This document shows, piece by piece, positions 6,759 to 37,622 of a stretch of 38,862 nucleotides of DNA. The stretch is from Eimeria necatrix (Eukaryota; Apicomplexa; Conoidasida; Eucoccidiorida; Eimeriidae), in NCBI RefSeq assembly GCF_000499385.1, contig NW_013655308.1, positions 1 to 38,862 of the forward strand, given 5' to 3'. Each line of letters begins with the position of its first letter. Position 1 is the first letter of the stretch. The translations under genes were made by a program, and so were the position numbers. Under the pieces are notes generated by a model. That model saw nothing but the letters and a program-made list of their open reading frames with translations. It had not been told where the DNA came from and searched no databases.

Positions 6759-6759
6759 T

Positions 6760-7281: not shown

Positions 7282-7510
7282 CAGATTGTGAGTTTTTCTT
7301 ATGGCCTCTTACTCCAGCATACATGGTATTGAGACAATATTTGTCAAATGAGGCAGCATTTCGCTAAATGTGGCACTAATTCTGAATTTAAATACAGGAC
7401 GTGAGAGAAACTGCCCAGCACAAACGCTGCTTGTTTGTCGACGCGCATGCCCACTAGCGCTGAAGAACACTATTTCTTGTAGGACCTGCTACGTGCTAGC
7501 AACGCTGAAT

Positions 7511-7595
7511 CACTTCGAAGTACGTGAAGCTAACTTATAGCTGTAACAGCGGAATCTGCCGCCTTCAAAGTCTACGATGCAATATCAGAGCAGGC
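7511..7595 (+). repeat. Dispersed repeat copy A (85 bp), partner at 8525
   Basis: This block and 8525-8612 share GTACNTGAAGCTA, AGCT, GCCTT-AAAGTCTACG and AGCAG in the same order and spacing, about 1015 bp apart. By eye roughly 70% of positions agree. A weaker third relative may lie at about 9451-9475. It probably represents an old duplication of a larger unit. Confidence 0.6.
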
Positions 7596-8524
7596 CGATT
7601 GAACAACCTCCGCCACTGGCGTATTTGAAATGACTTCGATTGTGGCTGCTAATCTCAATTGTGCCAGGGACTACATTACAGGGACGACCCTGTTACAGCA
7701 TTTTACAGGCGCTTTCAAAATGGTTTGCACAAGAACGAGCAGCTGCCTCAGCGGCCAACCTTGCAGGGTGTGTCTCAAAAGGATAATGGGGCATGCCTGT
7801 TCTGCTCAACTACGCAGCTGCGCAATTAGGTCTACGTAGTGCGGACATTTTCCTTTCATTCCTATTGGGCACGTTTTACCTCACAAATGTTTGTTCTGCC
7901 AGCCTGTGCGCAATACCAACTAAGTTGGGTGACGTCTGCAGAATAATTCAAGCGACGAGCTGATTTGCTCTAGGGGTGCCAAGATGTGCGTGCGCCATCC
8001 GGTGAATGTTTTACCAAAATTTGGGCGTTTTGCCGGTAGTTCAAACGAATGTTCTGCAGCGACGTGAATCGTATATTAACGCTGGTGCTATTTTTCCTTA
8101 CAAATTGTGTTGCTGAATATCCAGGAAGTGCGTGCCAGCGCTTAATGAAAGGGCTCTCAGGGGACTCGAGCACGCTGCGTGCTTGTTTTTGATGATATTG
8201 CTACTGCGCTGCAAATTAACTGAATACTAGGCTGTGCGTGTTCTGGGTTTTCAGGTGTAGCGCAATTGCAGGAGGTGCTCTCGGATGGCGGAACAGCCAG
8301 CACATCGTTTTTCTATCATGCTGAGAGGTGGCGTCATAACTGCGCATACAGGGAGTGCGTTGCCACTTCCCACTTGTTATTTCGCATGGCTTGTCCGTGG
8401 CCACCAGTTTCAAGCGGGCTAAACGTCGCTGAATATGTGCAGTGGACTTCAGCCTGTGAGTCGTGTGTCTTCGTAATTGATCTGCGGCGACTAATGCACT
8501 AACCATTAACGGTACCAATATTGG

Positions 8525-8612
8525 GCTTCAAAGTACTTGAAGCTAGCTTGTAGCTATGAGTTGTTGGATTCTAGCGCCTTTAAAGTCTACGGTTCAGTAT
8601 AAAGCAGAACCG
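8525..8612 (+). repeat. Dispersed repeat copy B, partner at 7511
   Basis: Second copy of the block at 7511-7595. It ends shortly before one of the near-match splice-like cores (8635). Confidence 0.6.
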
Positions 8613-9889
8613 TTCGACGTTCATCTACATTAAACAGGATGTGCGGCCGCGATTCTACATGATATATCGCACCATTTCTATCTTTCCAATATCTGACAAG
8701 GTTAATGGCGTCGTGCGCACTGGATCACCGATGCAAACTCAAAGAGAGCTAGTCGCGTTCAAGATTTTGGCACTGGCATTCTTGAGATGAATTCAATGTT
8801 GGAAGAGATTGCTATTCTGGATTGATTATGCCATAGTGCTTTAAGCGCGCCCGTGTGCGCAGGCACTCAGAACCGGGAGCGTGCTTAGGCGTAATTATTC
8901 GGCGTAGAAAGTGCACGTAGTTCACCAGTTTGTTTTGCTGCTTCCTTCACCATTTGGTCTCCAATGAAACACTCGCTTTTGCCGGACGCAAACTTCACAG
9001 CAGTGTAGCCACTAGCAGGCTCTGGAGAAGATTGCTCCTGGCATAGCTTGTGAGTCATTTTTACACGTCTTCTCACAGATGTTTCCCTTATAACGTAAGA
9101 GAAAACGCCCAGACACAGAATTTGCGGAAATTTTGCTGCCATCGTCACTCACATTTTTCACATCGATGGCGCAGCATCATGACGACTGTAGCTTGTATGT
9201 TTTCTTCCGTAGACACAGACAAAAGCACTTCTTAACTTGGCAGAGGCTTGTGCGCAGTTCATTAGTTCGCCTTTGCTGCCGCTGGCTCTCTGCACGTATA
9301 TGTGGTGGTCAGCATAGTCAGCGCTTGCACAGGTTTAAGAGTTCCGTTGTATCGCGCATTTGCCGCCGCCGCCAAGTTTTCAAAGCCTTGGCAGTGAACA
9401 ACATACAGTGCGTGAGATTCGAATGAGACACTGCATGCGCATCTCGAGAATTCAGCACCCTTGAAGCCTACGTGTGTCTTTCCACCCTAGAGTTATGGCT
9501 GCAGAACAGCTTGAATGGCGTGAGAACGCATATTCTATTAATGGGCTGGCGCAACATAATTATAGAGTGGTATGCCTAAGACTCTGAAGCGATATAGCTC
9601 GTGAGCGTCGGAGAATTCTGCGCCAGATCGATACAGAACGCGTTACCAGATGCCTGCCATTGGGGGGCCAGCCGTACGCATGCCCAAACAAGGCAGGCCA
9701 AATAAGGCAGTTTATTTCTTTCACTAATCCGTTTACAGTAGTAGAGGGCCAGAAACAAACATGTGAAAGGTTCTTCAGAACACAAAAGAACCCAAGGCAA
9801 ATTGGTTTGGTGCATTCTTCGTTTCGCAATGCAATGATTTGCTACGAGTGAATCTGGTTGCGAGCACAGCTCGTAAGCCAAATATGTCG
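8613..9889. other. No gene recognised
   Basis: Open frames reach 101 codons but overlap on both strands (for example around 9560-9880) without recognisable domains. One strict splice-like core lies at 9044. Nothing else was seen. Confidence 0.5.
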
Positions 9890-10070
9890 CAAGTTCAATT
9901 ATTGACCGAATGTTTCAATTTGAAAATTATTTTTTTTCAATTTACTTTTAACTTTTCATCTTGAATACTTTTTAAAGGCTTAGCGTATGGTGTAGGCCGT
10001 TCCAAGTTTAAAGGGAATTTTTTATAAGACTTGAATTTAAATAATCCCCCAAATTCACTACTCTATAGGG
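9890..10070. other. AT-rich island
   Basis: Bases 9901-9960 contain 12 G or C out of 60, against roughly half in the surroundings. There are runs of T (eight at about 9930) and AATTT/AAATT patches. It could be a former intron, a promoter-proximal spacer or an inserted AT-rich fragment. Just downstream, GGGATTTTC at 10079-10087 pairs with GAAAATCCC at 10115-10123. Confidence 0.7.
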
Positions 10071-10597
10071 CGCATCCCGGGATTTTCTCTCTTATATAGA
10101 ACCGGGGCGTTCCTGAAAATCCCATGGAAATCGGCGTTGACGAACCTGTGTTTGGTGAGTGTCCGCATTTCCTGAGTGGAACGCGGGTCGCTAGCTCTTG
10201 GCAAGGTTTCTCGACTGCAGGGCGTAGGTCACACGAGTGGGCGTTTGTTCTGAATAGACTTGCTCACTGTATATCCAGGGTTAATATACAATTTTGCTGT
10301 CACGCTAGTAAGCATGGATATTGTGACAACTGCGCAGCCAAAGGCGTATTAAAGGAAACAGTCTTCGCATAAGGGTTGGGGCAAAAGAGCTACGATTATC
10401 CCAGGCAGGGCTCTCATCTTGCAGATAGTGGGTCAATACAGTGTACATGCTATGATTTGGGCGTAGATCTCACCAACCCAGGTGCCAGGCGTGCTCCGTG
10501 AAGGCGTGCATTGCTCTAAGTTGAAGGTCCACTGGTCGCACTCCTCAGGGGATTCCCTTCATCACTGGACAGGATGTAAGTACACGACGCAAACTTA

Positions 10598-11257
10598 ATG
10601 CGTTGTCAGGTGAATGCTAAGCACCGGTTCAATCGCCTTTTTAACTCAGACACTATGGGCTGCAGTTCTGCGGAAAATCCTAAAACGTTTGCGCCAGCCT
10701 GTGGGTTCACGAAAAGCATCGAGCCTACATTGGTTGCTAATCATTTCCTTCAGTATAAATTCGCGAAAAAGCGTAGCTCCAAGGCTGTTTTCGGTCTATT
10801 GCAGCATGTATGTTCTGGACAAAGGTGCACCAAGCACTTCTGCTTGGGACGTAGTTCGTGGTTCGGAACAATAGAATGTAAGTATAGCTCATTTTCAAAT
10901 ATACATCTTCAAATAGATGACGAATATTGCGCGACGAGCCAGTCTAGAAGAACTTGCTGCGAAGATTTTGCGGCAAGAAGACGCCTTCACTGTACTAAAA
11001 AGCAAAGAGGCGGCGAGCTAGCAGTGAAAACCGTTCCTCAGGGCGTAAGCTTCATATGCTGCTGCCCTTCTCGATGCGCCGATGACACTGCATTGAGGCA
11101 ATACATAACGGACCGCTACTTATGTATGCACTTGAACAGTGAGCTAGATGCTGACCTCTGCTGGGTACTTAGAAAGTATGTTGTGGGTCCACGAGAGTCC
11201 TCTTGTATTAAGCCGAATCTCTCTGCAGTTGAACTGCATGCACATAACGCGCGCTAA
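10598..11257 (+). CDS. Cysteine-rich open frame of unknown function, doubtful
   Basis: This 219-codon frame begins with ATG and is one of the two longest in the window. The product would carry about 18 cysteines, including CCC near residues 153-155 and a CC pair near 126-127, with many Arg and Lys residues. There is no signal peptide at the start and no domain I recognise. A frame this long is unusual but not impossible by chance in 39 kb read in six frames. Two strict splice-like cores (10872 and 11039) fall inside it, which would be odd if it were one uninterrupted exon. It may be an exon fragment or a chance frame. Confidence 0.22.
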   Translation: MRCQVNAKHRFNRLFNSDTMGCSSAENPKTFAPACGFTKSIEPTLVANHFLQYKFAKKRSSKAVFGLLQHVCSGQRCTKHFCLGRSSWFGTIECKYSSFSNIHLQIDDEYCATSQSRRTCCEDFAARRRLHCTKKQRGGELAVKTVPQGVSFICCCPSRCADDTALRQYITDRYLCMHLNSELDADLCWVLRKYVVGPRESSCIKPNLSAVELHAHNAR

Positions 11258-14200
11258 CATGCAGGTCGTGAGCTTCTGGATTCCCCATTACCATTCTGGC
11301 CATATAGATCAGCCTTAAAGCGGACGCTTGAAAATCTCGGTCTCAAGCATTATCAGTTATGGTGCAGCGCTCGAGCGAGAACTCGCGATTGACGCTCAGC
11401 TCGTGCGTCTTTGAATCCAGTGGATAACTGTGGAGTTCCAGAAGTGTGCCTTCGCTTTCAAATGCTGTGTAGCTCATACAAACTATTGCAATTAACAGCG
11501 TCCGCATGAGGTGCTGCGAATAAACAGATTATTCATCTGTTTGGCTACAATTTCTGCGTCTATTTCTAAAAATGCATATCAGTACGTGCGTTGACTTGCC
11601 AATTAGACATATGTGCTCTTTCACGCGCGTACGGCACCTGGAGCCAGCGGCCAAGCGACTAAGCTTGAAATTATTGCCTCTGCAGAAATTGCGTTCATTG
11701 CTGCACGCCGCCTTCCACTGATCATCAATATGGCTCAGTCACTCCTAATCAATCTATGTCGCGTTTAGGCTCCGAAAATTAAAGTCAAAAGGTGCCCGGT
11801 TTAATGCAGCCCGTGCGTGTGGCGCTTCTACGCAGAGTGCTGACGGCTCTCTCTAGAAGAAAGTCGTGCTTTCCTCATCATTGCACTTACACTCAAGCGA
11901 ATGGAATGTGGATTTTTCCAGCATTTGTCAATCCAGGAAGTGCGTGCAAGCTGTGATTACAGGCAGTTGAAGCCTGCGGACGTTGAGGCTCCTTTAGTGT
12001 AACTGGTAGCCAATTACTTGATAAATGGATCATGCAAGAAGTTAGTGGTCGTCTGAATTCAAAGCATATGAAGTATGCAATGTGGCCTCCTAGTAACCAA
12101 AACATGTCACTAGGTGTGACAAAGACAGTCACTGGTACACTAGTTTGTGGTGGGCATTGTGCGATCATGTGACCAATGTCAAACCATGATGATCACGCAG
12201 GTGGTGTGTTGTTGCATACGAACCACAAAGCAGCAAGCAGGACATTTCTGTGCTGGTGCTTGTATTCACGTTCAATGAAACATTCAGTCTTCTTGCCGCA
12301 TGAAAAATTCAACTCCTAGGGAGTGAGTGACACATTAGACAGAATGCTACACTCAAAAAGCAACAGTGCGTTTCTGTGTGTTACACTCAGCGCATCAAAC
12401 TGTAGTATACAGTTGGTGACGGGAAGGAGAGTGATAGTTTGAATCTTCCATGATTTTGCTTGCGTTTTAGGGTGTGAGTGGATTGGGGGGAGTGCATCTG
12501 CATTTGGCAAACACTGACACCTTCGTACTGAGAAGACATAGAGTTGGTAATGTACATTCAAGAGGCAATTCGGCAGGCAATGCGTCTTTTACCAAAATTC
12601 ATAGCTCTTTTCGGCTCACATATATCCTTAGTACAGCACGCAAAATTATTGTATTCGTCGTGGCTTCGGCCTCTCCGTTCAGGGAGTTAGAGTCGCAGCG
12701 TTGAGGAACGCGAAAGCATCATTATGCAATTATTGACTGACATTGTCAGAGGTGCTTGCTGTGTGGGCTCGTAGACTGTAAGCCACAGCATCTGCGCAAG
12801 TGCATTCGCCAGGCAATCTGCTTGCTGGAACCCACAAATGTTTCAATCCATTTTGGTGGCTCGTACATTTTCGCATTTTGCCTGTCATTCTATTCGTGGA
12901 GCTGATGGCCGGTTGTATAGGTTGTGAGTTTTACTCTCAGCGTCGTGATATCATGTATTTCACTGCAATTTACGCAAAACTGTTGTTTTGTGTTAATTTC
13001 AAAATGGCTCTTGAGCATTACAGTTTGTTTACCTGATGCTTCAGCATATCTTTTGAAGGGTCAGCTGCGACTTCGGCTCACTAGATTCTGTAGTCATGTG
13101 TGCGGCGTTACATGACCAACGATATTGACACACGAGCAGCATTTGTGACTCGTCGCATACTCAAGTTTTGTCAAGCATTGGTAGCTTCACAGCGCTGAGT
13201 AGCCGGCAGGGCTCGGGATAGATAATGTAAACACGGCGTCACTAGAGAACGATGGTTTTGGCACCTGCAGCAAGTAGGTTACTTTCTGTACGCGCAATGC
13301 TAGACGTAGAACTCGAGCGACGTATATGTTTTACGGTTTCGTCTTTTAATTGATGGTATCTTGTCTAGAGCCTTCGCCTGTTATCTTCTAGGTTCGGTGC
13401 GAAAGAATACAAGCTGGCCTGGTTGTTCTAGAATACTCTCGTCATGTGGCTCTCAGCTCATACGCTCATAATTTGTTCTTGAGATTTTTCCTCAATTATT
13501 GCTGGAACCGTAAAATGCTTGGCGTGACGAAGGTAACAATCTTCGCATTTTGCAAGCAGCTAAATCTCGGATCCCCTTTCTAGCTTTCCCCTTGAAAGCG
13601 CTGCAAAGAGTCTTGTATATACAATTGTGATTAGTGAGCGGGTAGCACCTTGCCCCGAAATGGCTGACTGCATGTGCCTACAGCAAGTAGGTTTAGCCTT
13701 CTGTCGCAGAGGTTTCTGTCTCGTTTCCATCCGGGGGTACTGACCAGCGGGACGCACTGGACTGCAAATGGGGGGATGCGGAATTTAGGGTGCATAAAAA
13801 CTTGCAGGAAGTAAGCAAAACAACCGTAAAGACACTTACACAGTGCCGTACATTATGTGAGCTACTCTTAGATCCTCCACCGCAGGTAAATATGAGGAGA
13901 CCGATTGCTGGTGACCGCCTAGGCTGTGCGTATAGCCTTTCCTCTCCATACGGGACTGGCGTTTGTTCGTTAGCTCGCCTGCGTTTTGCTGACACCGGCC
14001 ATCTTACTATCCAGATTGTAGGACTCAAAACATACGGGGATAATTGGTCAGCTGCGCGAGAAGGTAGCTGCTTGTAGTATTTTTTTGAAGGCAAACGTAC
14101 TAGCAGCCGTGGGAAGTTCTCTGCTTTCTGCTTAGGGTGTAAGTATTGCTAGCCACGTGAAGCTATGGGGGCCAGTGGACATATGGGCTTGCCTGCTTTA

Positions 14201-16699
14201 GGTAGGTATGATGCGCAGCTTGGGCATAGCGGAGCAGATGAGGCACTGGATTGCTGCAGCCCAATAAACGCATGGTATTTGCCACGCCTTCAAACGATGG
14301 GTGGCCTGTCGGTCAGCTGCATGGTATTTTCATTCCTGGGCCGGAGAAAATTGGATTGGTGCAGCGAGTACGCTATCGGCGCTTTTATTATGTTCAGAGC
14401 GGATGAAAGGCAAAGTGCTACACCACCAAGCCACGAGCTATACCTCATGGCTCGATAGTGTAGGATTTTGGCTTTCATCCAAACCTCCCTGCATTCATGC
14501 CTTCACTTCAGCTGGGTAGAATGTGGAATTAGAGCGTTTTCGTCGGTGCAGAATGTGCGTCTAATGCGCCGACGGTGCAGTAACCTCTCCTGTCATTTCC
14601 ATTGCTTTGATCAGCAATGCCAAAGGCTAGCTTTCTATCTTCTGTGTTGTCTACACCATGTTTAAAGGCACGAGGTCTTTAAGAGCATCATAAACATTCT
14701 GTGGTTGCACCACCTCTTCGCCAGAATGTAGGTATTCTGTTTGCCTGGTTATAACTGTTTCGGCTATGAATGACATTACGGTCGCAAACGCCTGTTGCAA
14801 CCGAAACGAAATCAGAGCGTACGTTGCGCACAGGTTTGATGCTTTTGCCCGAGTGTATGGCTGCTGCGTGGCATTTTCACATTCATATCGGTTTGGAGGG
14901 ATAGCAACGCAGCTAGTAGCTGCTCCGTGCACGAAAAGGGGATGCGTCAAATTTACTTGAAAAGCAGTGCGGCATGAAGTGATTTGCATGGCCGCATAAA
15001 ACTGTTGGGAACGCCTAGGGTGATATAGTTCGGAACGTCCTCTGCGGCCTAGGCTTTGAGCCGAGTCACATCATTATGCCTATTTTTACTGTCCCGGGCA
15101 TGAAGATGATCGATATTAAAAATAACATTACAGGAATAGCACAGGCGGACGGGTAATTTCAGCCCAATTGCGCTAGTCTAGTGTCTCAGCAGGAGGCATC
15201 CTGCAATACAGTTAATCAGAAAAAAGCGTCAGCTCTTCAGAAGCTGTGCGACAGGCTTAAAAGTGAAGAAGCCTTATGAGATCACCAGCTGGTGTGTTTT
15301 CAATTAAAGTACAGCTGATTAGGGGGGCTGCTACTGAGATATTGTTTACTTTTGGCGTATGCATTTTTGGCGCATTTGGCTTCAATCTGTCTATTTTTGG
15401 ATATCAAAAGACAGTGCGTTCTTCAATGTTACAGTTAACAGCATGCATCAAAAGCCCGTTTGAGCGTTCTATAAGTCAAACTAAGCGCCTGCATTAGCTT
15501 GGTGCTGCTCAATCGCAGGGACTACGTTTAACAATTTGCTAGGGTCATGGTCCTTCCATTTTACGTTTGGAACCCCACGTGGCGGCGTTGAGATAAAGGA
15601 AAACTTTCGCAAAATGAGCCCACTCACAGCCTGTGAGTTTTCACACCGGGTTGCTAGTTCCAGGATGACAGTTTTGAGCTGCTGGGGCAATAGTTTATAG
15701 AGCACTTCTTGCCCAGTTCTGGCAGCAGAAGTGGAGGCGTTTTTCTTTTAGGGAGGCATGATTTGATGCTCCTGATTATCGACATGGCATGCACATGTGA
15801 TTTGTCGCACCATGGCTTCAAAAACATAGACGGCGCGCGCGGTGGGAGCTGCCAACCACAACTTGGCATTACAGTCATTACTCATCCACTTTTATGCTTT
15901 TTACGTGAGTGACACAGTCTAGGCACATGCTGTATTCAACAGAATGTGAGTCGTATGAACCATTGCCAAACGAAACGGCAGCAAGATTTCGACACAGCAG
16001 GCTGAGCCAGTTGAACTGCACTTGTCATATTTCAGCGTAATATCGGTGCCATTAGGTCTCGCAGTACTTATCCAGTAGACGTCTTTAATTTGTTTTTATT
16101 TTCATCTGCCATGTCGAAATCTTGCTGGGTATTAGGGAGTGCGCTTGCTTGCTGTAGGCTAAGACTAAGACCTATTTAACGTCTGTGCCTTGAGATCCAT
16201 CTAGTGAGCGTACCTAGAGATTTTGGCACTTCATAGGAAGTGCAGCTTCCCCGCATACGTTCAGTTTTTGTTTCAGAGTGTTTCTAATACTTCATGTTTA
16301 ACGTTACATGATCTGTACTGTCACGCATGTGCACAAGACAGCCGCACCTTGGTTTGTTTATTAGGTGCAGCCTCCACTGCATTGACAATTTACGTGCCAG
16401 AATGTGAGCTTGTTGGCAGACTGCATACGAATGAGCTGCGGTGACTAAATCTTAAACTGTTTAGAGCCGTGGCCTGGACATAGTTATTCTGTCAAAGGCT
16501 GCTTAATGCGTCTTCGCAACAGCTTGTGCGTTCATGCTGTGTGCTGTTACAGCACGTTCCTCAGTAACTGCTCTCATGTAAGCAGGCCTTATCGGCCTAT
16601 GTTAAGTTCGTATTCAGAGGAAGAACTCGAGTGTTGTTTTGCCGTGGCAAAAAGAAGTGCGCCCCGCGTTATTTTTACGCAAGGCAGTAGCATTGCAAA
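11258..16699. other. No supported coding gene; motif-dense
   Basis: Frames here are at most 133 codons, many overlapping on opposite strands (for example 13693-14094 minus against 13790-14077 plus). The stretch contains 18 of the 26 strict splice-like cores, densest at 11262-12918. No tRNA or rRNA signature was seen. Confidence 0.5.
15622..15638. repeat. 17-bp palindrome formed by two overlapping splice-like cores
   Basis: ACTCACAG, C, CTGTGAGT reads the same on both strands apart from the central base. Each strand therefore carries a full CAG-NNN-GTGAGT core. It is the only place in 7-18 kb where I find a strict core on the minus strand. Confidence 0.75.
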
Positions 16700-16702
16700 G
16701 TG

Positions 16703-17209
16703 ATGGAATTCACCAGTCTTTGGTCTTGGCTACAGCTCACGCGTGGAGCCTACGTACCTCATGGCTGTGAGGCCTCTAAGATGTACGCCGTAAGTTTTCT
16801 GTTCACGTATAGCATTCCGTGGGGCGTTGATTGCTCCTCTGCTGCCACGTCTATTCTCCTTTCTGTGGTGAACTTGCTTTTGCATACTGGTTTGTCGACC
16901 CCGTATTCGCTAACTCAGTTTTCTTTCCAATTCTTAAGACCAGTGATGCCATATCCTTTCTCGTACATCTGGTGGCACTGCTTGCTCCTTTCTCGTGAGT
17001 TGCTAAACTGGCTTGTAGGTGCTTCGCTTGTTCGGCCAGTTAGTAAGCCGGCGGCAGACGTCCGTCCCTTCCGTCCCAATCCACTCTTTTCTAGAATATC
17101 AATCACATTTTTACTCAATAGCGATTGCCTGTATGATGTGTATCGCATGTTTAAGGTTGTGCGAATACCAGACTCTACACCATTAGCGGTTCCGTTTAAC
17201 GCTGCATGA
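16703..17209 (+). CDS. Hydrophobic open frame of unknown function, doubtful
   Basis: From the ATG at 16703 this is a 168-codon frame rich in Ser, Leu, Phe and Trp, with hydrophobic stretches near residues 45-65 and 85-110. The plus strand is T-rich here, which by itself yields hydrophobic codons. A 152-codon minus-strand frame (16915-17373) overlaps it and reads as a more polar, Lys/Arg/Ser-rich product starting MIRRSMFCVTCQTN. I cannot tell which strand, if either, codes. Neither matches a family I know. Confidence 0.15.
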   Translation: MEFTSLWSWLQLTRGAYVPHGCEASKMYAVSFLFTYSIPWGVDCSSAATSILLSVVNLLLHTGLSTPYSLTQFSFQFLRPVMPYPFSYIWWHCLLLSRELLNWLVGASLVRPVSKPAADVRPFRPNPLFSRISITFLLNSDCLYDVYRMFKVVRIPDSTPLAVPFNAA

Positions 17210-17469
17210 GGGTCTTGCCGGGAGGCTCGGCAAGCTATTGGAGTGACAAAATTCACTTTCCTGCAAACATTCTTTTGTGTTTTGGACCACAGGAGGTTTG
17301 GTGAGTGTCTTTTCGTAAGTCTAGCGAGTGTGTTCGTCTGGCATGTAACGCAGAACATGCTGCGCCTGATCACGCCTCGATGGTAGGCGCTACCTTACAT
17401 TGCTACTCTTACAGGAAGAGCAGATGCGTTCATCCGGAATGATTCAGGGAGTCAATCCGGTGTGCCCCC

Positions 17470-17565
17470 TGCAAACACTATTTTGTTCGTATTTTTGTCT
17501 GCCTTGTATCTAATGCAAACACTATTTTGTTCGTATTCTCGCCTGCCTTGTTCTCGCCTGCCTTG
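17470..17565 (+). repeat. Tandem duplication, about 44 bp, with a 15-bp extra repeat
   Basis: TGCAAACACTATTTTGTTCG occurs at 17470 and again at 17514, each followed by a related TCTGCCTTG/TCGCCTGCCTTG tail. The tail TTCTCGCCTGCCTTG is then repeated once more to about 17565. It is a simple slippage-type duplication. Confidence 0.9.
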
Positions 17566-17749
17566 TGTCTACTTTTGCTGCGCATGAGCGCTGTCTCGTT
17601 TTGCTACATGGGCCTCGTGCCAGGAAACGGTTGCAGATCATACCGTTCCGCTGTCCAATGCACCGAGGTTTTTCATGGGCCTACACTTGCGTCCCATTGT
17701 GTTTATGTAGAAGCATATTTCGCGGACTGAGACTTGACATGAGCAATTA

Positions 17750-18442
17750 GTGGGTCCTGTAGTCTCATTAAAGCCTTTATTAATATTCATTTATCTGGCG
17801 AGCGTAGCTACGCGCTGTTTCACTTCAACTTCGAGCATTTTAGTACACGTTGGCAAAGGCTGTGGATGGAGGGCCTTTCGATCTGTGTTGTTACTTAAGG
17901 TAGCTTCGCTCCCTCAATTTTACCCAGATAACACATGCAATACACTGAGAGCACACCAGACCTGGCACTCATCTGGATCCGCTGTTGGGAGTAGAAATAC
18001 TTTCCAACCCTTTTCTGGCGTCTGCGCAAGCACAGCAGATTCTCTGTTTACGCTGCAGTCCACAGCTTTGAGTGGCTATCAGTACTCGATGCAGCCGGGG
18101 ACCAGAGAACGCAATGCTGCTTCCCGAATATTTTTCAACAATTGCTTTCTTGCCTTCATAGGACAGAGCAATGTAAGCAATACTGCTCGTTTTCCACTGA
18201 ATTTACAATCCCAACGGCCATGGAGAGCGATGGGCTACGCATTGTGTGTCTGTGCAGAATGTAAGCTGCAGTTCTCGCTCAAAGGCCCGGGTCCACAGAT
18301 GAGTGGGCCCAAGTGCACATGCTTTTGCCGTACCTTAGTATTGTTGCCTCGTGTCTGTGCTTTCCAGTCCGTGCTACAATGTTTTGCTGCTGCATCATTT
18401 AGTATGTGGCGGCCCTGGTATATTTATATATACACATGGTAA
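17750..18442 (+). CDS. Longest open frame (230 codons), unknown and doubtful
   Basis: The frame starts at GTG after an in-frame stop at 17735 and has no ATG near its beginning, so it would need an upstream exon or a non-ATG start. The first 25 residues are hydrophobic (LLIFIYLASVATRC) and could resemble a signal or anchor. The rest is Ser, Cys and Phe-rich with no recognised domain. It ends in a TA-repeat that yields YIYIYTW. A strict splice-like core (18255) lies inside it. The T-rich strand favours such frames, so I regard chance as likely. Confidence 0.2.
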   Translation: MGPVVSLKPLLIFIYLASVATRCFTSTSSILVHVGKGCGWRAFRSVLLLKVASLPQFYPDNTCNTLRAHQTWHSSGSAVGSRNTFQPFSGVCASTADSLFTLQSTALSGYQYSMQPGTRERNAASRIFFNNCFLAFIGQSNVSNTARFPLNLQSQRPWRAMGYALCVCAECKLQFSLKGPGPQMSGPKCTCFCRTLVLLPRVCAFQSVLQCFAAASFSMWRPWYIYIYTW

Positions 18443-27318: not shown

Positions 27319-28824
27319 TCTTAGTGCTCAGAAGGTTGGTTCTGCGTGGTGATGCTGCTTATCTGGAGAGTTTGGATCCACAGCGTAGTTGGAACAACTC
27401 AGGAGCATCAGACACCCTGTTATTTAGGAGAGTCGCTAGATACATCTGATTCCACTCTTCTCGACTAGTCTGCACAATTTCATTAAATGTCTCGCATCGG
27501 CTGATTCTGAGCCGTGAACAGAGAAGACAGGCATGCAGTGGTGCGGTGAGAGGAGGCTGGCACCTAAGTCTGGTTGTTCATGAATTAAAGTTGATCTGCC
27601 ACGTTTACGAACCTCTTACAGTCAGTAAAATACGTAGGAAAAAGTGCAGAATGCTAATAGCAGTATCTACAAGCAAACTCCATTGAACTTTGGGTGGAAC
27701 AACTTGAGTAGGATGGACAAACTCTATCCGCCATCCTCTTGGCGCTAATAAAAGAATGTTGAAACGTTATTGCATTGAGAGCAAAGAAATGCTAATTGTG
27801 TGGATTGTGAACTTAAATATGGCAGACCACGGTTTTCGTCAGCTGTCCTATTGTACTCATATGCGGAAGTAGGAATAATTCGAGCCACAAAAGTGCTGCC
27901 CAGAATGTAAAACTAATGAGCAGAAGCCCATTCACTTGCTCCTGTTTTGCATGATGCACAGCTAGAACTCTCGTGTGCAGATTTTTAGGTAATTCTCACA
28001 AAGCTGATGTGTTATGGCCAAGGCTGCGCTCAACCGGCAACCAAAGACGTACTCACTGAGGCAGTGATGGCAAAGGCTGGCTCAAAGCCTCACGGAAGGG
28101 GGGCGGTGCATATACAGAAGCTGGAAAGCCCACTCTGCATCATGAAAAAACAACAGAAACAATACACAAGTAAACATTTTCCAAGTAGAACCACAAAGTT
28201 AGCATTAGCGCGAGCAGTTTTGGCGTACTGGGGTGCACAACCGAATCGGCAGGCACTTCTAATAGTGCATTTGCGTGCTCATGCTATAAAGCACATACGT
28301 AAATCAGAGGCGCAAAAAACATCATTTGAGCTATTGCATCGTTGGGGAACCGTCCTATAGTAAAAGCTTCTACATCCTATGTCGGTCGTCACCTTATCTA
28401 CTTTGTTGTCATATTTCTCTCGAAAGCAACTCACAGCCGTCACAGATGGCTCTCGGTTCCAACGAACATAGCCGTTTCTTCCTCGTACTTTTGCAGACTT
28501 TCGCAAGCTTCTCCAAATGCTGCTATGGCGGCGCATTTGCAGACTGCCATACAACGAATATCTCAGCAACGCAACTCAGGAACACTTAAATACTTCAAAA
28601 AATTGATCATATACCGCTGGGACATTCATTCTCGTACTGTTAAGTTGAGCGGAGCTTAACTTCTAAATGTCTACTGCTATATCGCAGTGTTAGCCGTTTG
28701 CATTCGCAGTAGAGAAAGAGTGAAAACTTTAGCGTCGTTATGAGACTCAGGCCGAAGGCTTTGATTGCGACTTCCTACATCGTAAAACATGTGCAGTAAT
28801 GCTTGAGATAGAAACGAATCTTAA
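27319..28824. other. No gene recognised
   Basis: The longest frame is 117 codons (28007-28360, plus), basic and without a known domain. From about here on the plus strand tends to be A- and C-rich. Confidence 0.45.
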
Positions 28825-29295
28825 TCAGTAATTGTGCTGTGCAACTGCAACAAATCGTTCAACAGCCATTAGAAACTGTTGTGAACAAGCCGCCACACAC
28901 GGAAGCCAGCATACGACATTCCACAACGCAGTTGATGAGTGATCACTTTCCATCTTACATCGGCTCCAGGTCCAAAAACGCGCAATAACACTCTCTGACC
29001 ACGGAAAGATACTGACGGCGCCGCTCACCCCGTATGCTGTGCAGAAACGAGCCGTCTGCGAGAAATAAACCTCTCTGCAGCTGAGCATCTGCGTCGGAGT
29101 CGCTGATTTGCGTGCGCTGTATGCTTTTTGCTCTTTGGACAGTCTGCCAAGCAAACTTCTGTTGAGGCTTATTTTGCTGGTGGAATACTTTGTGGAATGC
29201 AACCAGCGGCGGCTATTAGGAAACAATCGACGATGAAGTTTTCGAACATCCAAGCGGGAGGTTGCACGAATCTCACGTGCTTCGACAAAGTGCAT
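28825..29295 (-). CDS. Open frame of unknown function, doubtful
   Basis: A 156-codon minus-strand frame with an Arg- and Ser-rich first half and a Trp- and Cys-containing second half (ALWNVVCWLPCVAACSQQFL near residues 123-142). No domain was recognised. Part of it is overlapped by a 101-codon plus-strand frame (29128-29433). The length alone does not exclude chance. Confidence 0.15.
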   Translation of the reverse strand: MHFVEAREIRATSRLDVRKLHRRLFPNSRRWLHSTKYSTSKISLNRSLLGRLSKEQKAYSARKSATPTQMLSCREVYFSQTARFCTAYGVSGAVSIFPWSESVIARFWTWSRCKMESDHSSTALWNVVCWLPCVAACSQQFLMAVERFVAVAQHNY

Positions 29296-31384
29296 GAAAC
29301 TGTACGTGAACTCAAAGCACTGGAGCGCACTAATTGCTTTAATTTGGGACTTACGCCGTCGCTACGCAAGGCGTCATGCACAGCTGCCGAACAGGTGAAC
29401 TTTGAAGGCCGGTTTCACTTATGCACATGTTAATTTTCATCAATAGAAGCAATGGTGAGCATATTTAAATTGAAAGAGGGGAAATTCGTTCAAAATTTCC
29501 TGTTTCAGTGATGTACAATTGCGTACAATCTCGCTCAATTTAAAACGGCGCTTTATCGAAGAATTTTTGACCTGGCAACTCCCGCAGTCCATAGAAGATT
29601 TTATAGTCACTTTGCACATAAAAAGCCAATTACAAATAGCTTTTGTGAGGGCACCTCGCAGCAGTACGCAAGGAAGGACACGATATGTGACCTCAAAGTA
29701 AGGAGAAGTTCTTAATGGTACGCATACTCAAAAGAGCGGCCCTTTTTAACGCATATATGCTTCTTATATGCGAATGCAACATTTGCCAAGTTTATTTATG
29801 CATTTGCTTGGGAATGCGCTGGCAGTGACACAAAGGATAGCTTAAAATTGTCCCAAGTCCATGGCCTACTGGAGATGTTGCACTCTAGATCATTGTCCTT
29901 TTGTGTCTCAAAGCTTTTGATCAGCCACACATACTTGCTGTAAACAGAAATAGACCATGCAAAATAGAATAAAGTCTTTTCTTGCGATTACCCTTTCTAT
30001 TGTCGAGGTCCGCCTAGACGCTTTTACCTGACACAGACAACAACCGTCACCAAAGAAAAGTATGATCTTCAGGCCGACATAAAATGATGTTTCTGGTTCT
30101 TTGACACATAAGAAAAGAAATAATTTACACAAAGTGCAACAAAGGCAGTATGTATCTACTGAATGTGGCTTCATCTGTACGCCACTTTGGGCAGCACGTG
30201 CTTCACACCAGAAGAAAATGTTTTGAGCCACATGTAGAAAGAAAGCATAGAAGTAGTTGTGGCAAATTTTTCTTAGGGATATCATTCACGCACATCTGTA
30301 AGCCTGTCGCACTTGTTGTGCTTGCAGCATGTCCTAGGTCCACAAACTCTTGCATTGCAGCCAGTCTGCAAAACGTTCATACATTTGCTCCAAAAGTGTG
30401 TTGCATTTGTATTTAGTGCATGCCACAAGAGTATATCGCCACTCCGTCCAATCCAACCGCAATGAATGGCAATAAAATGATTGAATTTTTCTGCCCTGCC
30501 GCATTGTATTGGCTCACGAACTGGCTCAGATAATATTATCCTCTTACAAGGCCAGGTGACACCACACTCATTATCATAAGCATACGCGTGGTGAGTTTGC
30601 TTGTGTCAAATAGAGCATCTGTGCGTTGCGATGGGTCATTCCCGTGTTTATGCGAGCCACGTCGCAGTTTCTGTTGTCTTTTGCAGCGTGCGCATTCTGC
30701 GCTGGCTTCGTTGCCTAGTATGGGGCGTCAACATGGACTCCTTTCCATATGCCAGGGATGTTTTCAATATGAGCACGGAATATTCAACTGACTATGCGGC
30801 GACTGCTTAGTTCGCCGGCTGCCAAAATGAGAAACACACATGGAAAGCCAATGCCATGTGTTTCGGGTTAGATCCTGCATTACACCCCGCTAGTCTTTCA
30901 TTGTGCAATTTTGATTAATTTCAGCCTCTCACTCTCTGTACATATCCTCCTTCTAGCCATGATATTATCTGTGCAGCTGCCAAATATAGATCACACAAAA
31001 GATGATGATTCAGCACTGTAGGCACGTACCTAAATCCATCAGCAGCAAATACGCACTGAGGCTTTGTCGTTTCAACTTGCATTTCCATGAGACAATATTT
31101 TGGCTCTAGGTTTTAATCTGTTATGACTGCTGTCCTATGTGGTCTTTAGCGTCTCAGTCCGCTGCACGGTCATGCGCATACTCCCTGAAGGGTTACTCGC
31201 TTCAACTCCAAAAGTAGGCCAAATCACATGTTTTCAACTTTGCTGGCCGTCAAGATAGTGTGCTTCATCTTTCAGGTGCTTTTTTCTTGGTGTTCTACAT
31301 ACTTCGTCGCAGGACGCCCCGTAACACGTTGTTAACTTGATAGTTAGCTTGCCAGTCAAATTGAGTGCAGTTGCTCACAGTTCA
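29296..31384. other. No gene recognised
   Basis: Frames reach 125 codons (29908-30285, minus, Phe- and Cys-rich because the strand is T-rich). A small hairpin, CGCATATA at 29750 with TATATGCG at 29765, has a 7-base loop. Nothing else was seen. Confidence 0.45.
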
Positions 31385-31494
31385 GGCTTGCTAGTGTAGA
31401 TGACGTTTCACCTTAGAAAACCCATGGAGGCGATGAGAATGGCTTGCTAGGATAGATGGTGTTTCACCCGAGAAAACCCATGAAAGCGTCCTAA
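31385..31494 (+). repeat. 56-bp tandem duplication
   Basis: GGCTTGCTAG begins copies at 31385 and 31441. Both contain TAGATG, GTTTCACC and GAAAACCCATG at equal spacing. Roughly 80% of bases agree by eye. Confidence 0.9.
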
Positions 31495-31587
31495 CGCACC
31501 TCCTATTTGAAACGTTTGCCCTGCTTTCGTTCTGCTGGACCCTTCTGCGTTCGAAACAAGTTTCGACTAAGGCAGCTGCAGCCTCTT

Positions 31588-31959
31588 CTAAAAAATAGAG
31601 CTTTCTACCATATTTACGCGGACAAATAGTGAGAAAGCAGATGCGACGCACGCATCAGGTGCAACGCTTAGGAGCGCGGCATCAAAAGTTGTAAGCACAA
31701 TACAAACTAGCGTAAAAAATAGCGTCTGTGAGGGCGTCATGTAACACCAGGCTTGTAAGTTCAGCTGGAAAACCCACATGGCTAGTGAAATCACAAATAA
31801 TATGTTTGAAACCAGACAGATCCAACGTGCGGCGTGGCAACACATTCGCTGGCAGATTAAAGCGGCTATTTGTTTCTCTGAGCAGCTACAATCTATCTCC
31901 AAGCAGGCACACTTCCTGCACAGGTCAGTCATGCTGAAATCTCGCGGACCATTGCTCAT
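31588..31959 (-). CDS. Possible small membrane protein, doubtful
   Basis: A 123-codon frame starts at an ATG at 31959. The N-terminal 45 residues are Cys-rich (Cys at about 14, 17, 19, 24, 26, 36, 40 and 41). Two hydrophobic stretches follow, near residues 46-66 and 78-100, and could span a membrane. The minus strand is T-rich here, which produces such frames without selection, and the length is not statistically convincing. No family recognised. Confidence 0.2.
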   Translation of the reverse strand: MSNGPRDFSMTDLCRKCACLEIDCSCSEKQIAALICQRMCCHAARWICLVSNILFVISLAMWVFQLNLQAWCYMTPSQTLFFTLVCIVLTTFDAALLSVAPDACVASAFSLFVRVNMVESSIF

Positions 31960-34900
31960 AAATTGATGTAGAAAGCATGAACATTCACAGTGGAATCAAA
32001 ACTTCTTCCTACATGGATCCTGAACCACTCTCGAGACCCAGACAGTGATACGGTTGCCCTGAGCTCAAAGGCTACGACGACTAATGAAGAAATATACAAG
32101 GTTGTTTGCAGAAGGCAGTGCACCCAGCTGCGCCAATTGGGTATGTGGCACAAAACAGAGGACTTAGCACACATCTTAACAGTGGTATCTGCATGGCCAT
32201 TTATGGATTCCAAAGATAAGCAAAACGCTCTATACACGTTTTGGTCTCCGCGCTGGGCCTACTATCTTTCCATGAGGCGACAAAGTAGTGAGTGAGCATA
32301 GCAGTCCAAGTATTTTAACATAGCGACTACTGAAAAAGGCAAATCACTATTCGCTGATTTCTTGACGGGCCAGATATTAATATTTAGCGAGCAGCATCCC
32401 CTAGAAGTAACTTCTGCTCTCCAACATTGAAGACTCTTTAGCAGATAAAACTGGCTTTTGCGTCGTAGGCCTTTGCTGTTTTCTTTTCCGTCACAAAGTC
32501 CGTTCGTCATCCCTTATTGTTTCCTCAAAACACATTTTTCAAAGCATATTGAAGGCCACTTCTATTCCTCTCTCTGGCGCCTATAATTTCATGGAAAATA
32601 TCGACAAATCTTACTAATAACCATTGATACATAGCTGCTACGCGGAGAAAATACCTTAAAACGTGTTGCTGCGCATTAAGCGCGGCGTATTTCATTGGAT
32701 GATAAACAGTAAGCTCATGCTGCGAAGTATACTCGCGGCATGAGCTGAGCATATTTTTTTCAGCAAAATTTGGACCCACTGCCTGTTTGCTCGCCACACC
32801 CAACCTCTCGAATACGAGAAAATAAGACAGAAAATTTTCGACACCCAGGCAGAACAAAATGCACTTCATAGTTAATATTTCTACATTCTCACACCGAAGC
32901 CGGCAAAGCGTGTTCGTTGTGCTTTGGCATACACAGCTGGCTTAAGCATACAGTTGATTACAGCGAACCCTGCTTCCCGAGGAACGGTAGTGCTCAATCA
33001 CGGCAAAACAATACCGTTCATCGTTGCTGTGAATCAACTGTGCCCACATCCTGAATGTAGCGGGACTTCCGTCTAATAACTGCATCATATGTCACTGCTT
33101 GCGAGTACGTGCACACACACAAGACTTCATATCTCTGTGGGAGCATTTTTCAGCGGAAATTAAGTACAAGATAAAAATATTTTCATGCCCCTTTTACTTC
33201 GTGCTGTCGTTATGACCTACAGCTGAGTGCCTAGGGAAGCAAGGCTGCATTTTAGGGAAAATGTGACTGCTTATTCTGCAGCAGAGTCACTCATGTCCTC
33301 CTGCATGACTAGCTTGCCGGGACACTTTGTAGCCGCTTCAGCTTACAACCTGCAATCACTAGCAACGGATTGCGGGCCCGGGTCGTCATGTCTACAAAGC
33401 GGGACACGGCATGCGGCTTCTGCATACTGATATCTAACTCACCGTCTTTTGAAAAATGCTGGTGAATACAGGACAATAATTATGCAATGATCCCACTGTG
33501 TCAAAATATTGTTGTGCTACGCTACTTCTTCAGGAAGTTTCTAATGATGCTACTTCTGCAGCATGATTTTAGTTCTTGATGATGCTCTTTGTTCTCTCAA
33601 ACGCCCGTTGCCTAGGTCGGAGTCTATTTTGTGAAAAATGTTTCTCGACCGCAATCTGTAGTATCTATTGTTTTTCTTTAAGTGTGAATTGCTATGAAAT
33701 TCGTTGACCTATAGGTTGGAACTACATTTGACAGATGAGACCGTCAGCTTCATGCTGAGATTACGAACACTGCATTTGCCGCACATCCTAGCATTTCTCA
33801 ACTCCAAAGGTGATGGCCAAGTCTGCATCAGCTCTGCTTGCAAACGTATGCAAGCATTCTTTCATGAGAAAGCTTCCGACGGTTAAAAGGCGGACTTCAC
33901 TAGGCTCGCGCCGCTGTGAAAACCCGAAAACTGATACAAACAGGGAACGCACCCACTATATTTTCCACCATTTCACGACGTTTTACACCTACACCTTTGC
34001 AGTAACCTGGGCCACTGTCATACAAGAGTGCGCACTGAAAATCAAGCGACGTCTACGTAATGCAAAGGCGCAGCTTTATTTTCCGCCAGTAGCTCTAACA
34101 GTGCAAAGAACCAATGTACGAGTGGCAATGATTGACAGGGTCCTCGCAGACTCTTCGAGTTAATGCTTACGACCTGTTTTCCGGTATAAAAGAACATTGT
34201 TCTCCCCCATTCTCGCCACACACGACGTCACGAGTCTCATGGAAAAGGATATTTACCTCAAATTTATTATTGCAGAAAAGAAATATACTTCTTTGTCCTT
34301 TGGGCAAAGCTGCTGCGAATAATTTTGATTACAACGGATACACTTCAAGTGCTGTTCTTCAGATAATGCTCACCACCTTCGTAGAAAAAGTAAGAAGCAC
34401 GCGGTGCAGAGTTCTTCACGTAACAGTGCGACTAGTAAAATTGAAAGCGAGTTCGGGCATAGTACTTTCCTTCGGTGTAAGTTTAACTTCTAGCTGAGCC
34501 ACGAAAATGATGTAGCGCATTGCAGATTCAGCACTGAGGTTTCTTTGCATTTTTTATAGCGTTTACCTATTCCACACAAACACGCGGCGAAATGGTCACG
34601 CTTGGTGAAGCGTTCGAAGTCGAAGGAATGTCAGAGCTTAAAAGTGCTCGCGGCAGTGACAAAGAAAAGTATACAGTTGCCAAAAGCGCATGATGCACAC
34701 GTTGTCATCAGTAATGGTGCAAGCGTTCAGCAGGCTCTGTCTCTCATGTCGCTTTGCTTCTTAAAGATAACAAAGCAAGCAATGGCTCAATTTTGATCAA
34801 AATCACGCAAAACTTGTCCTTGCATGGAAAGGTTCTCCTGTGTTGCTTCAAAGCAAGCGAACGTCGGAAATACGGGCCTTAGACATATTTTAGCAAAGGA

Positions 34901-35409
34901 AGGCAGGAATCGCCCACAAACAGTGGATTCACGGGAAAAGCAAGCGCTACGGCAAGGTGCCGTTGCCGCGTCGTCGTGCTCTGACCTACCAGCAATCGTG
35001 GCGATACGTTTTATTAGTAGTCAACACAGCCTCGGGTACCTCCGCAAACGCAGGACAAGTAACTTTATTTAGCACTATTCCCTAGCCTTAGCGATTGCAA
35101 ACGCTTGCTACGAATTAGCTGAAATCGACTGAAAGGAACGTATTGGGTTTACAGTGGCACAACGGCGTGCTAACACACACTCACAGAGAGTAATTATGGA
35201 GGCCAGTATATGAATCGATACATCGGCTTATGAGCTCCAGTAGATTCATAAATATCACTGCAGTGCAATAGTACCTAAAATGGTCAGAAAAAGCTTCATG
35301 CCATCGAATTCCGTTTAACAGTCAGCCATTGCACAATCAGTCCTCTTGGTCCAGATGACAGGGCAAAAGGTGCATTGTTGTTTTCGGCGGCCTACAGACA
35401 AGCAGATGC
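31960..35409. other. No gene recognised
   Basis: Frames reach 121 codons and none has a recognised domain. Plus-strand frames at 33810-34163 and 34132-34497 overlap by about 30 bp and are Lys/Arg-rich and Ser/Leu-rich respectively. I see no feature linking them. Confidence 0.45.
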
Positions 35410-35496
35410 GATCTGACATATATAGGGCGAGAGCTGCCCAGCAAATGTCGAACCGCAACATTTTCTGGGCAGCTCTCGCCCTATATATGTCAGATC
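35410..35496. repeat. Near-perfect hairpin: 39-bp arms, 9-base loop
   Basis: Arm 35410-35448 is the reverse complement of 35458-35496 except for one mismatch (C35442 opposite T35464). The loop at 35449-35457 is CGAACCGCA. The outer bases GATCTGACATATATAGGGCG are the start of the arm. Pairing stops abruptly outside. The size and shape would fit a small-RNA precursor hairpin, a very small foldback element or a recent inverted duplication; the sequence alone cannot decide between them. Confidence 0.95.
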
Positions 35497-36730
35497 AAAC
35501 TCGGCCAGAAATTATTTTAGGCTTTTAGTACGAACGAGTGGCTCTTTGTTCCATTGTTTGATAGGGCACTGGCCGTTACACCGCGTATGAAAGGCACGTA
35601 AATAAAACATGCTCTTGAGGTATTGCCTACAAACAGCTACATGAAGTGACAGAAACGTATACGAGCAGAAATGCTGGGTTTTCAGAGGATAATAATACAA
35701 TTGCGTGCTAGGAGACTCTTGCTTGCCTGGAAAAAGTCCCATAAAGAACGAGCAGTGAAATGAATGAAATGTTAGTGTGACAGCATCATCAGTGCTTGGT
35801 TCTAGATTTATTTCTTTACACGCGTTCTGTGGTTCACTTCACTATAGCCCAATATGCACTTAACAGCCACATGCATCCCCAAGGGGTTTTACAGAGACAA
35901 AAGCACTCATTGATGTCTAGGACCAAAAAATTATATTATGAAAAAAGACATTTTTTTTGGCTTCTACGCAGGCACCTCAACAAGAAAATTAAAGGGATCC
36001 CGATTTTTTGAAAAATGTGATGATTGCAATATCGAACTACTTCAGTGATTTGCGTAGTGCCACGGCCAACGCAAAGACGAAGAAAAATATCTTGCACATG
36101 CAAGCAGCACTTTCCCATTTATGTACACATAATAATTCGCTAACTCCAGAAGCATGCGAAATTCTCGTGTCGCTCAAAGCCATTCTGGAAGGTGTTTAAC
36201 GACCGGTGTAACTGCCAAATGAGGTAGACGAGGCCGCTCGTGAATCCCATTGCGCAATCCACGAAGGCAGACGCTCTGCAAAATTTCCGTTCAGCCAGAC
36301 ATGCGCAAAGCCACGTACGTTCTGCGCAGGGGAATGCGTAGTGCAAAGCCCTGTATGCCTGCACACAACATTTTCACCGATGGCACGAAAACAATGATGA
36401 ATAAAAACTTCGACTAGACTACAAACGCTAATACAAAGCACAGACACCTTTAGAGGCTACTCCGAATATTTTCTGAAATTCTAAACACGTTACCTCCTGC
36501 TCATGACAGTACGGGATAAATATCATCGGAGAGGCACTCGCGCGATGGCGAAAGGCCAGAACTATGCACCAAATCGAGCGCACGAGCACGGCTTACCATA
36601 GCAACCATAGCAACCAATACGAAAACAACAATGCACTTCAAACCATGTTTAAACACGAATAAAACTACGAGTATGTTGGCTTAGTACTATTCGTTTGACA
36701 ACGTAAGTATCACAAAATTCAACGACAAAA
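35497..36730. other. No gene recognised
   Basis: Frames are at most 83 codons. One 9-bp direct repeat (ACCATAGCA twice at 36595) is the only pattern seen. Confidence 0.45.
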
Positions 36731-36862
36731 GACACTGAAGGCACTTTTCCATAATATCTGTACACCACCGCCATACGCCAAACATTTGGCAGTTCCGACA
36801 ATGCCCAACGGAGTTTCCAGCAATCACCAAAACTTGAGATCGCCTGTAGAAAAGGAACCCTT
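36731..36862 (-). repeat. Duplicated block copy A, partner at 37623
   Basis: On the minus strand this block and 37623-37753 share AAACTCC, GAA-TGCCAAATGTTT, TTAYGGAA and CNGTGTCT at the same spacing, about 892 bp apart and about 70% alike by eye. Two reading frames are conserved between the copies. One lies in an 89-codon frame (36649-36918) reading ALSELPNV here and ALSEVPNV in copy B. The other reads LLETPLGIVGTAKCLAYG here and LLQTPSGVVRSAKCFAYG in copy B, but is short in copy A. Which, if either, codes is unclear. Confidence 0.7.
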
Positions 36863-37622
36863 TCGGTGGTACTCATCGGACATGTCCCAAACACCAAGGT
36901 CCCCAAATGTGATGCCAAACTAAGTGATCTGCATGGACTCAGTGTCAGGAACAGAGAGGGCAGTTGTCAGCTGCAGTAAGTAAACGCTTGCCTGGGCACG
37001 ATGCGGATATGCACGAGGTTTCATCATTGCAGTCGCAAGGCAAAGAGTCACCCATGATTCAACTAGACTGCCAGCGGTGTCGCTCTCAATCTTCAGATGC
37101 TTGGTATAGAGGGTTTGCGCCTCTCACCAACGCTGCGTCTTCAAGGAATGTAATATTGCTGTAGGTCTCTGCAGGCAATACGCTTTTACCGTTTGCTGTC
37201 GCCAAATCTCTCAGAAACAGGGTCTTCAACGCACACGCTAGGAATTCCAAAAGCGACGCAACCCCACAGGCACACCGTTCGTTCTAGTGCTGCCTTTCAT
37301 GCAGCAGCCACCACTCTGCATGACATTTCGCACCTCGCGCAGCGGGCAGCTCGAGCCTCTTAGGAAAACGCAGACGCTAAAAAACGCCCTAAGCTTCTCA
37401 CTTGGGTCCTCAAACATCGCTGCTAGACACCTCTAGGACATACTCTCTGCTCGCCACAATTAATAGCGGACACAGAAAGAGAAACAATCCGGTTCAGATC
37501 ATCGCAAGAACCAGCGCGGGAATGCTCGACATTTTCGGTACAGTGCAAATTCTCGCCGATTTGCAGTTGTTCCAGGCCACAGGCGTGCAACAGAGTTGCA
37601 GAAAAATAATGTAGTCCTTCGA

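Follow-up and report, generated by a model that had tools for sequence, protein, structure and literature searches.

A one-strand array of putative three-nucleotide micro-exons in a contig of Eimeria necatrix

The micro-exon genes (MEG) of Schistosoma combine exons of 3-81 bp with introns of up to 5 kbp (PMC10526429). For Drosophila homothorax an exon of 3 bp is on record (PMC7392893), and a 1-nt exon is spliced in Arabidopsis APC11, where stepwise splicing is discussed in the section concerned (PMC4674806). Stepwise intron removal is also enforced at the ratchet points of Drosophila and vertebrates, where acceptor and donor lie close together (PMC8605326, relevant section). Here we describe contig C102 of an Eimeria necatrix assembly (NW_013655308.1; 38,862 bases of 44.0 Mb in 1,148 contigs), which was analysed over its whole length and is called the window below. 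Between positions 7282 and 18266 its plus strand carries an array in which acceptor-like YAG triplets are followed, after exactly three bases, by donor-like GTRMGY hexamers. We consider it probable that these are serial spliceosomal micro-exons of 3 nt, each a whole codon in phase 0, which would be joined stepwise.

With the Schistosoma genes the array would share very short exons between far longer introns. However, exon sizes are mixed there (PMC10526429), while here size 3 dominates with tens in series, and the organism is unrelated. The tiny exons of homothorax and APC11 are likewise 1-3 nt long, but as described in the passages concerned they lie isolated in ordinary genes and not by tens in series. 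The ratchet points resemble the array in the closeness of acceptor and donor. In contrast to their direct joining, as given in the section cited (PMC8605326), the Eimeria arrays have a fixed gap of three bases, short introns and no stop triplets.

For Eimeria tenella, gene-poor subtelomeres, bands of TTTAGGG-like repeats and gene deserts have been described; the arrays plausibly lie in the same kind of sequence, and the section on these bands and deserts does not mention micro-exons (PMC9131526). In a review on apicomplexan splicing the words microexon, micro-exon, recursive and short exon do not occur (PMC6381282). No report of serial 3-nt exons was found in the literature searched, a mention in the Eimeria genome papers being possible.

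Spacer-3 sites in the window and in the genome

Strict sites were defined as YAG-N3-GTRMGY and relaxed sites by loosening the donor to GTRNGN; 200 dinucleotide-preserving shuffles per region and strand served as null. The first-pass annotation had listed 26 strict starts on the plus strand of 7282..18266. All 26 are exact matches, while the total was too low: the interval holds 34 sites, the overlooked ones being 8228, 9595, 9867, 12772, 13920, 14362, 14813 and 17037. Adjacent sites among these 34 are 101-1218 bases apart. The claimed excess over chance is borne out, since the shuffles gave a mean of 0.81 (maximum 4) on this strand. On the minus strand of the interval there is one strict site (shuffle mean 0.59, maximum 4), namely the single match reported earlier; it lies at 15633 and overlaps the plus-strand site 15627 as a near-palindrome. 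Over the whole window, 38 strict sites on the plus strand (shuffle mean 2.65, maximum 7) and 11 on the minus strand (2.31, maximum 9) were counted. When the spacer was varied from 0 to 10, every length but 3 gave 0-4 matches per strand in the window. With the relaxed donor, 52 spacer-3 sites fall within 6601-18600, two of them inside TTTAGGG repeats, compared with a mean of 3.5 at other spacers.

For pooled counts six arrays were used, the one in the window and those in C5, C12, L028, L030 and L031. The sequence read outside the window amounts to about 200 kb and was picked partly for carrying sites, and the six arrays are a non-random sample of the genome. They comprise 116 strict spacer-3 sites, compared with a mean of 4.5 (maximum 8) across the other spacers from 0 to 15. 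With donor GTRNGN there are 176 sites at spacer 3 (mean 16.9 at other spacers), and AAG acceptors occur 9 times (2.9). The sites keep to one strand, with strict sense:antisense counts of 34:1 in the interval described above, 26:1 in L031, 19:2 in L028 and 13:0 in L030. Other exon sizes were considered and rejected, as spacers 0-99 yielded nothing like the spacer-3 peak in the six arrays, apart from small bumps in single arrays.

The genome was scanned with the reversed pattern on both strands as control, which is not fair to every class of triplet. A spacer-3 excess was found here as well: 3739+3912 = 7,651 sites compared with 1379+1389 = 2,768 in the control. Spacer 4 showed no excess (1674+1658, i.e., 3,332, vs. 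1738+1734, i.e., 3,472). Spacer 6 gave 1909+1939 (3,848) vs. 1579+1585 (3,164) and spacer 2 gave 2517+2611 (5,128) vs. 1833+1875 (3,708); among the matches listed for spacer 2 (100 places), the single word CAGGTGTACGT accounts for many. One-strand clusters of spacer-3 sites occur in contigs C3, C5, C6, C12, C200, C514 and C570. The large contigs C1, C4 and C8 hold 7, 11 and 7 such sites in 96-98 kb, close to the level of the reversed control (6 per 100 kb). As a rough guess, the approximately 4,900 excess sites, at about 20 per array, might correspond to some 200 arrays. The beta-tubulin gene of the same assembly has ordinary exons and introns. In addition, the assembly contains runs of poly-glutamine/alanine and TTTAGGG-like repeats, both described for Eimeria (PMC9131526). 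A NOC/CBF-type protein shows 86% identity to Eimeria tenella and 49% to both E. brunetti and Cyclospora cayetanensis, and the genome is taken to lie close to E. tenella.

The first-pass annotation had called the flanks not obviously conserved and had offered the core of an old repeat as one explanation. The former is correct, since the aligned flanks showed no relationship beyond local duplications; the latter finds no support. All-against-all comparison of the flanks of 115 sites from the six arrays, overlapping neighbours set aside, revealed local duplications within C12, L030 and L031; the sole match between arrays was a weak one of 29 bases between C12 and L030. Between the six arrays there is no match at E 1e-3. 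A repeat-family origin was rejected because of these unrelated flanks and the lack of inter-array matches. Thus, although local tandem duplications copied some sites in L030, L031 and C12, we give next to no probability to a remnant of a repeat family, or to an artefact of composition, which the 34 sites vs. 0.81 in dinucleotide shuffles contradict.

Such tandem duplications copying putative micro-exons lie at about 2450-3610 in L030 and about 4384-4928 in L031, where sites recur 546 and 233 bases apart. Local tandem duplication is a possible route of array growth.

Splice-site signatures

The variants tolerated at the sites obey splice-site rules. In three arrays, the letter before AG is C in 40, T in 18, A in 7 and G in 5 cases, and at the donor, position +4 is free while +5 is G. 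Furthermore, AG is avoided upstream: within 12 bases it occurs at 24 of the 116 strict sites, whereas 977 of the 1,792 remaining YAGs of these arrays have one (P=9e-13), and 29 AGs were counted at -12 to -1 in the six arrays where about 86 would be expected. Exclusion of upstream AG is characteristic of 3' splice sites that are located by scanning.

Strict neighbours are never less than 91 bases apart (0/110), while random placement gave a mean of 21.6 such pairs and a minimum of 11 in 5,000 simulations. Consequently, the shortest intron would measure 88 bases. In the two densest arrays the mean site-to-site interval is 333 bases (window) and 294 bases (L031), near the mean intron length of 298 bases given for E. 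tenella (PMC8515493).

The paralogous contigs C5 and C6 are 73% identical overall and 60-82% identical over 57 blocks of 200 columns; their best 60-column windows reach 53-54/60 identical positions. Despite this divergence the cores are kept at 7 of 11 sites in C5 and 7 of 10 in C6, compared with 257 of 1,745 (15%) for permuted patterns, of which 3,000 were used.

A bipartite motif YAG-N3-GTRMGY, bound as DNA or RNA in oriented arrays and left unspliced, would account for the fixed spacer and for a core that is kept in C5/C6 while the enclosed bases drift. However, such a motif predicts neither the upstream AG exclusion nor the sharp minimum of 91 bases nor the missing stop triplets described below, and its tolerated variants would not be expected to follow the rules of splice sites. 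We therefore consider it very improbable. Serial 3-base micro-exons, in contrast, are supported by the AG exclusion, the 91-base minimum, the retention of cores in C5/C6 and the lack of stop triplets. Among the alternatives named in the first-pass annotation they fit best, and the stepping by recursive-like splicing that it had listed separately merges into them. On these signatures we regard splicing at the sites as well supported.

Two further observations concern the form of the sites. Triplets seldom end in G (7/116 strict and 14/176 relaxed sites in the six arrays), a bias opposite to the G that usually precedes a splice donor. In C12 (L009+L010), eight double acceptors of the form CAG-NNN-NAG-NNN-GTR were found at offsets 5462, 6499, 6970, 7655, 7852, 8317, 9339 and 10580. 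They would correspond to exons of 9 bases that still carry an AG exactly three bases before the donor, and C12 shows a small bump at spacer 9. Those at 7655 and 7852 are copies from one duplication. For the six with an inner GAG or AAG no counterpart was found in the nine other stretches checked.

The enclosed triplets and their reading as codons

Not one of the 176 relaxed sites of the six arrays encloses a stop triplet (TAA, TAG or TGA). The base composition of the sites themselves would predict 6.3 (P=0.002), and the frequencies of intron triplets 7.7. Near-stop triplets are present in this set, namely TAC 5, TAT 2, TGC 4 and TGG 1 times. Genome-wide, sites with TAA/TGA (TRA) show no excess (86 vs. 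78 in the control), whereas those with TTA/TCA (TYA) do (138 vs. 52). Since the reversed control is unfair to some triplet classes, a test of clustering with neighbours within 5 kb was added. Counting TYA neighbours among the matches listed, stop-triplet sites had 1 on the same and 2 on the opposite strand (of 73), TRC sites (TAC/TGC) 10 and 0 (of 83), and TYA sites 16 and 2 (of 100). TRC neighbours of TYA sites numbered 9 on the same and 0 on the opposite strand (of 100), again among the matches listed. With so few same-strand neighbours, the stop-triplet sites look like background. From these counts we infer that translation of the triplets in phase 0 is probable.

When the triplets of the window array are joined (relaxed set, 50 residues), the peptide begins I-D-P-E-A-G-P-D-L-L-C-L-L-G-I-D-P-H-N-G-K-V-L-Y-P-E. 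The peptides of C5 and L031, which have no DNA similarity to each other, both carry G-V-T-x-x-x-P-x-L-T-L (P=0.004, uncorrected for the 34 pairs compared); this match is suggestive only.

Several results weigh against translated micro-exons and have to be set beside this evidence. First, the avoidance of stops is partly confounded because TAA or TGA after YAG creates a competing GTRAGT donor. As a partial control, TAC and TGC after YAG create GTRCGT, a frequent donor type here, and yet are tolerated; thus, donor competition alone is unlikely to be the cause of the missing stops. Second, TRC sites show no genome-wide excess (112 vs. 156 in the reversed control), and their clustering is less clear: among the matches listed, TRC neighbours within 5 kb were found for stop-triplet sites 5 times on the same and 4 times on the opposite strand (of 83), and for TRC sites themselves 4 and 2 times (of 100). 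Third, none of five concatenated peptides matched Pfam, and a homologue search with one of them found none. Fourth, no convincing start or terminal exon, or longer exon, was identified in the arrays, and no long, well-conserved exon stands out in the 200-column blocks of C5/C6. Fifth, there is only a weak pyrimidine tract (7.6 vs. 7.1 of 14), and in the relaxed set, chance matches included, 7 of 170 gaps are below 91 bases, three of them being 4 bases. Sixth, the enclosed triplets of C5/C6 are 69% identical compared with 73% in their surroundings, i.e., they drift almost neutrally; over 12 pairs their mean BLOSUM62 score is 3.75 vs. 2.41 for intron triplets, which is not significant (P=0.09). 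Finally, core retention shows no excess in two closer comparisons, in which the test has little power at 92-94% identity: between the window and C3 (94% identical) cores are kept at 13/17 and 13/18 sites compared with 68% for permuted patterns, and between L031 and C1086 (92%) at 4/7 and 4/4 compared with 58-60%. These comparisons thus give no evidence of constraint on the array of the window itself, and some copies of arrays may be decaying.

The nearly neutral drift in C5/C6, together with the failure to find a protein family or homologue for the joined triplets, would suit non-coding spliced RNAs that are built from 3-nt exons and never translated. However, 0 stop triplets in 176 sites, and stop-triplet sites that do not cluster with TYA sites, speak against such RNAs, which we find quite improbable. 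A less distant alternative, though still an unlikely one, is that the sites are stepping stones of recursive splicing that divide very long introns, the triplet being a mechanical spacer lost from the mRNA or irrelevant in it. The AG exclusion and the minimum of 91 bases fit this equally well; triplets drifting at an intron-like rate in C5/C6 and arrays without other identified exons would also be expected. Yet at known ratchet points, as far as the cited section goes, the donor follows the acceptor without a gap (PMC8605326), and spacer 0 is not enriched in the six arrays, where directly joined AG|GT gave 2 matches compared with 116 at spacer 3. In addition, stepping stones leave the missing stop triplets unexplained.

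According to the favoured reading of serial micro-exons, YAG would act as acceptor and GTRNGN as donor, with NNN as a complete codon in phase 0. Between the one-codon exons would lie introns of normal size, no shorter than 88 bases and up to about 1.2 kb in the window. If acceptor and donor lie three bases apart, the complexes of both splice sites cannot hold the unit at once, and the introns would therefore most likely be removed one after another. Each joining to an acceptor would add one codon to the end of the mRNA and leave the next donor in place, which amounts to a ratchet of one amino acid. If a unit were gained or lost, the reading frame would be kept and the protein would differ by a single residue. 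The reading frame explains multiples of three but not three alone; thus, a constraint of splicing is likely to act besides the frame and to set the exon size at 3 rather than 6 or 9.

Feature positions in the window and biological meaning

The plus-strand array of putative micro-exons (7282..18266) comprises 34 strict and 16 relaxed-donor sites. Among the strict matches, all on the plus strand, the following are common to the paralogous contig C3 (sites absent from the first-pass annotation are marked as new): CCT at 7903..7905 (core 7900), GCT at 8231..8233 (core 8228, new), GGA at 8352..8354 (core 8349), CCT at 8453..8455 (core 8450), CTC at 9598..9600 (core 9595, new), GAT at 10573..10575 (core 10570), GGC at 11042..11044 (core 11039), GTC at 11265..11267 (core 11262), CTC at 11400..11402 (core 11397), CCC at 11810..11812 (core 11807) and GAA at 11937..11939 (core 11934). 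CTC at 9870..9872 (core 9867, new) reads CTT in C3, and TAC at 11583..11585 (core 11580) reads CAC. The other strict micro-exon candidates are ATT at 7285..7287 (core 7282-7293), GAA at 8125..8127 (core 8122), CTT at 9047..9049 (core 9044), AAT at 10875..10877 (core 10872), GGA at 12320..12322 (core 12317), GGT at 12471..12473 (core 12468), ACT at 12775..12777 (core 12772, new), GTT at 12921..12923 (core 12918), GAA at 13808..13810 (core 13805), GCT at 13923..13925 (core 13920, new), GGT at 14136..14138 (core 14133), CGA at 14365..14367 (core 14362, new), AAT at 14552..14554 (core 14549), AGC at 14816..14818 (core 14813, new), CCT at 15630..15632 (core 15627), AAT at 15943..15945 (core 15940), GGA at 16136..16138 (core 16133), AAT at 16401..16403 (core 16398), CTT at 16523..16525 (core 16520), TTA at 17040..17042 (core 17037, new) and AAT at 18258..18260 (core 18255).

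The 16 weaker GTRNGN sites found by the relaxed scan span 7395..17333 on the plus strand and include no stop triplet. Their cores lie at 7395, 8635, 9189, 9406, 10218, 10422, 10695, 10802, 11170, 12198, 13268, 13681, 14012, 14722, 15286 and 17322. A few of them are expected to be chance matches (3.5 per spacer, counted over all relaxed sites of the stretch), and core 10802 is doubtful, the next site being only 70 bases away.

A second, sparser spacer-3 array occupies 28047..38363 on the minus strand, with 17 relaxed sites, 9 of which are strict. The 5' ends of its strict cores are 38363, 37240, 36324, 34176, 33958, 33352, 31505, 30523 and 28058; relaxed-only cores lie at 37449, 33790, 33053, 32785, 31918, 31187, 30938 and 29940. 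Within 27501-38862 these 17 sites compare with a mean of 1.7 (maximum 3) at other spacers. The last site of this array, which is outside the pooled 176 sites, holds TGA; this may be a stop codon of its own exon or a chance match.

Upstream of the plus-strand array, degenerate TTTAGGG/TTTACGG telomere-like repeats with a strong skew to G and T extend from about 4000 to 6757. They stop where the unit shared with C3 starts, and the same junction in C3 carries such repeats. Two candidates for a first exon behind these repeats (ATG at 6781 or 6908) were considered: one is in phase and has a donor that is poor in the window, and the other is out of phase. At 1203 and 1461, in a G+T-rich stretch, CAGGGAGTGAGC matches twice with similar flanks, and this pair is probably a local repeat outside the array. 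About 1 kb at the right end of the window (37817-38862) recurs in contig C2 (L011) as several related copies, 80-90% identical. None of ten open reading frames (ORFs) of the window matched Pfam above the cut-off, one giving a weak match below it. A search for known structured RNAs in the window and in L003, L028 and L031 yielded no Rfam family at gathering score.

Standard aligners place 3-nt exons poorly. Provided that RNA confirms the serial micro-exons, they would represent an extreme gene architecture with tens of one-codon exons per run, and their strict size of three bases would go beyond what present models of exon recognition predict. They would also show the reach of stepwise splicing and allow the origin of the three-base rule to be tested, reading frame against spliceosome. 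The arrays would form many genes in sequence that annotation would call gene-poor, and part of the Eimeria proteome would have been missed by annotation. We see about even chances that the spliceosome reads AG-N3-GTR as a unit and that hundreds of desert genes, with one codon per exon, encode hidden, fast-changing proteins. If true, single amino acids would be gained or lost in Eimeria without a frameshift, in proteins invisible to gene finders and read mappers alike.

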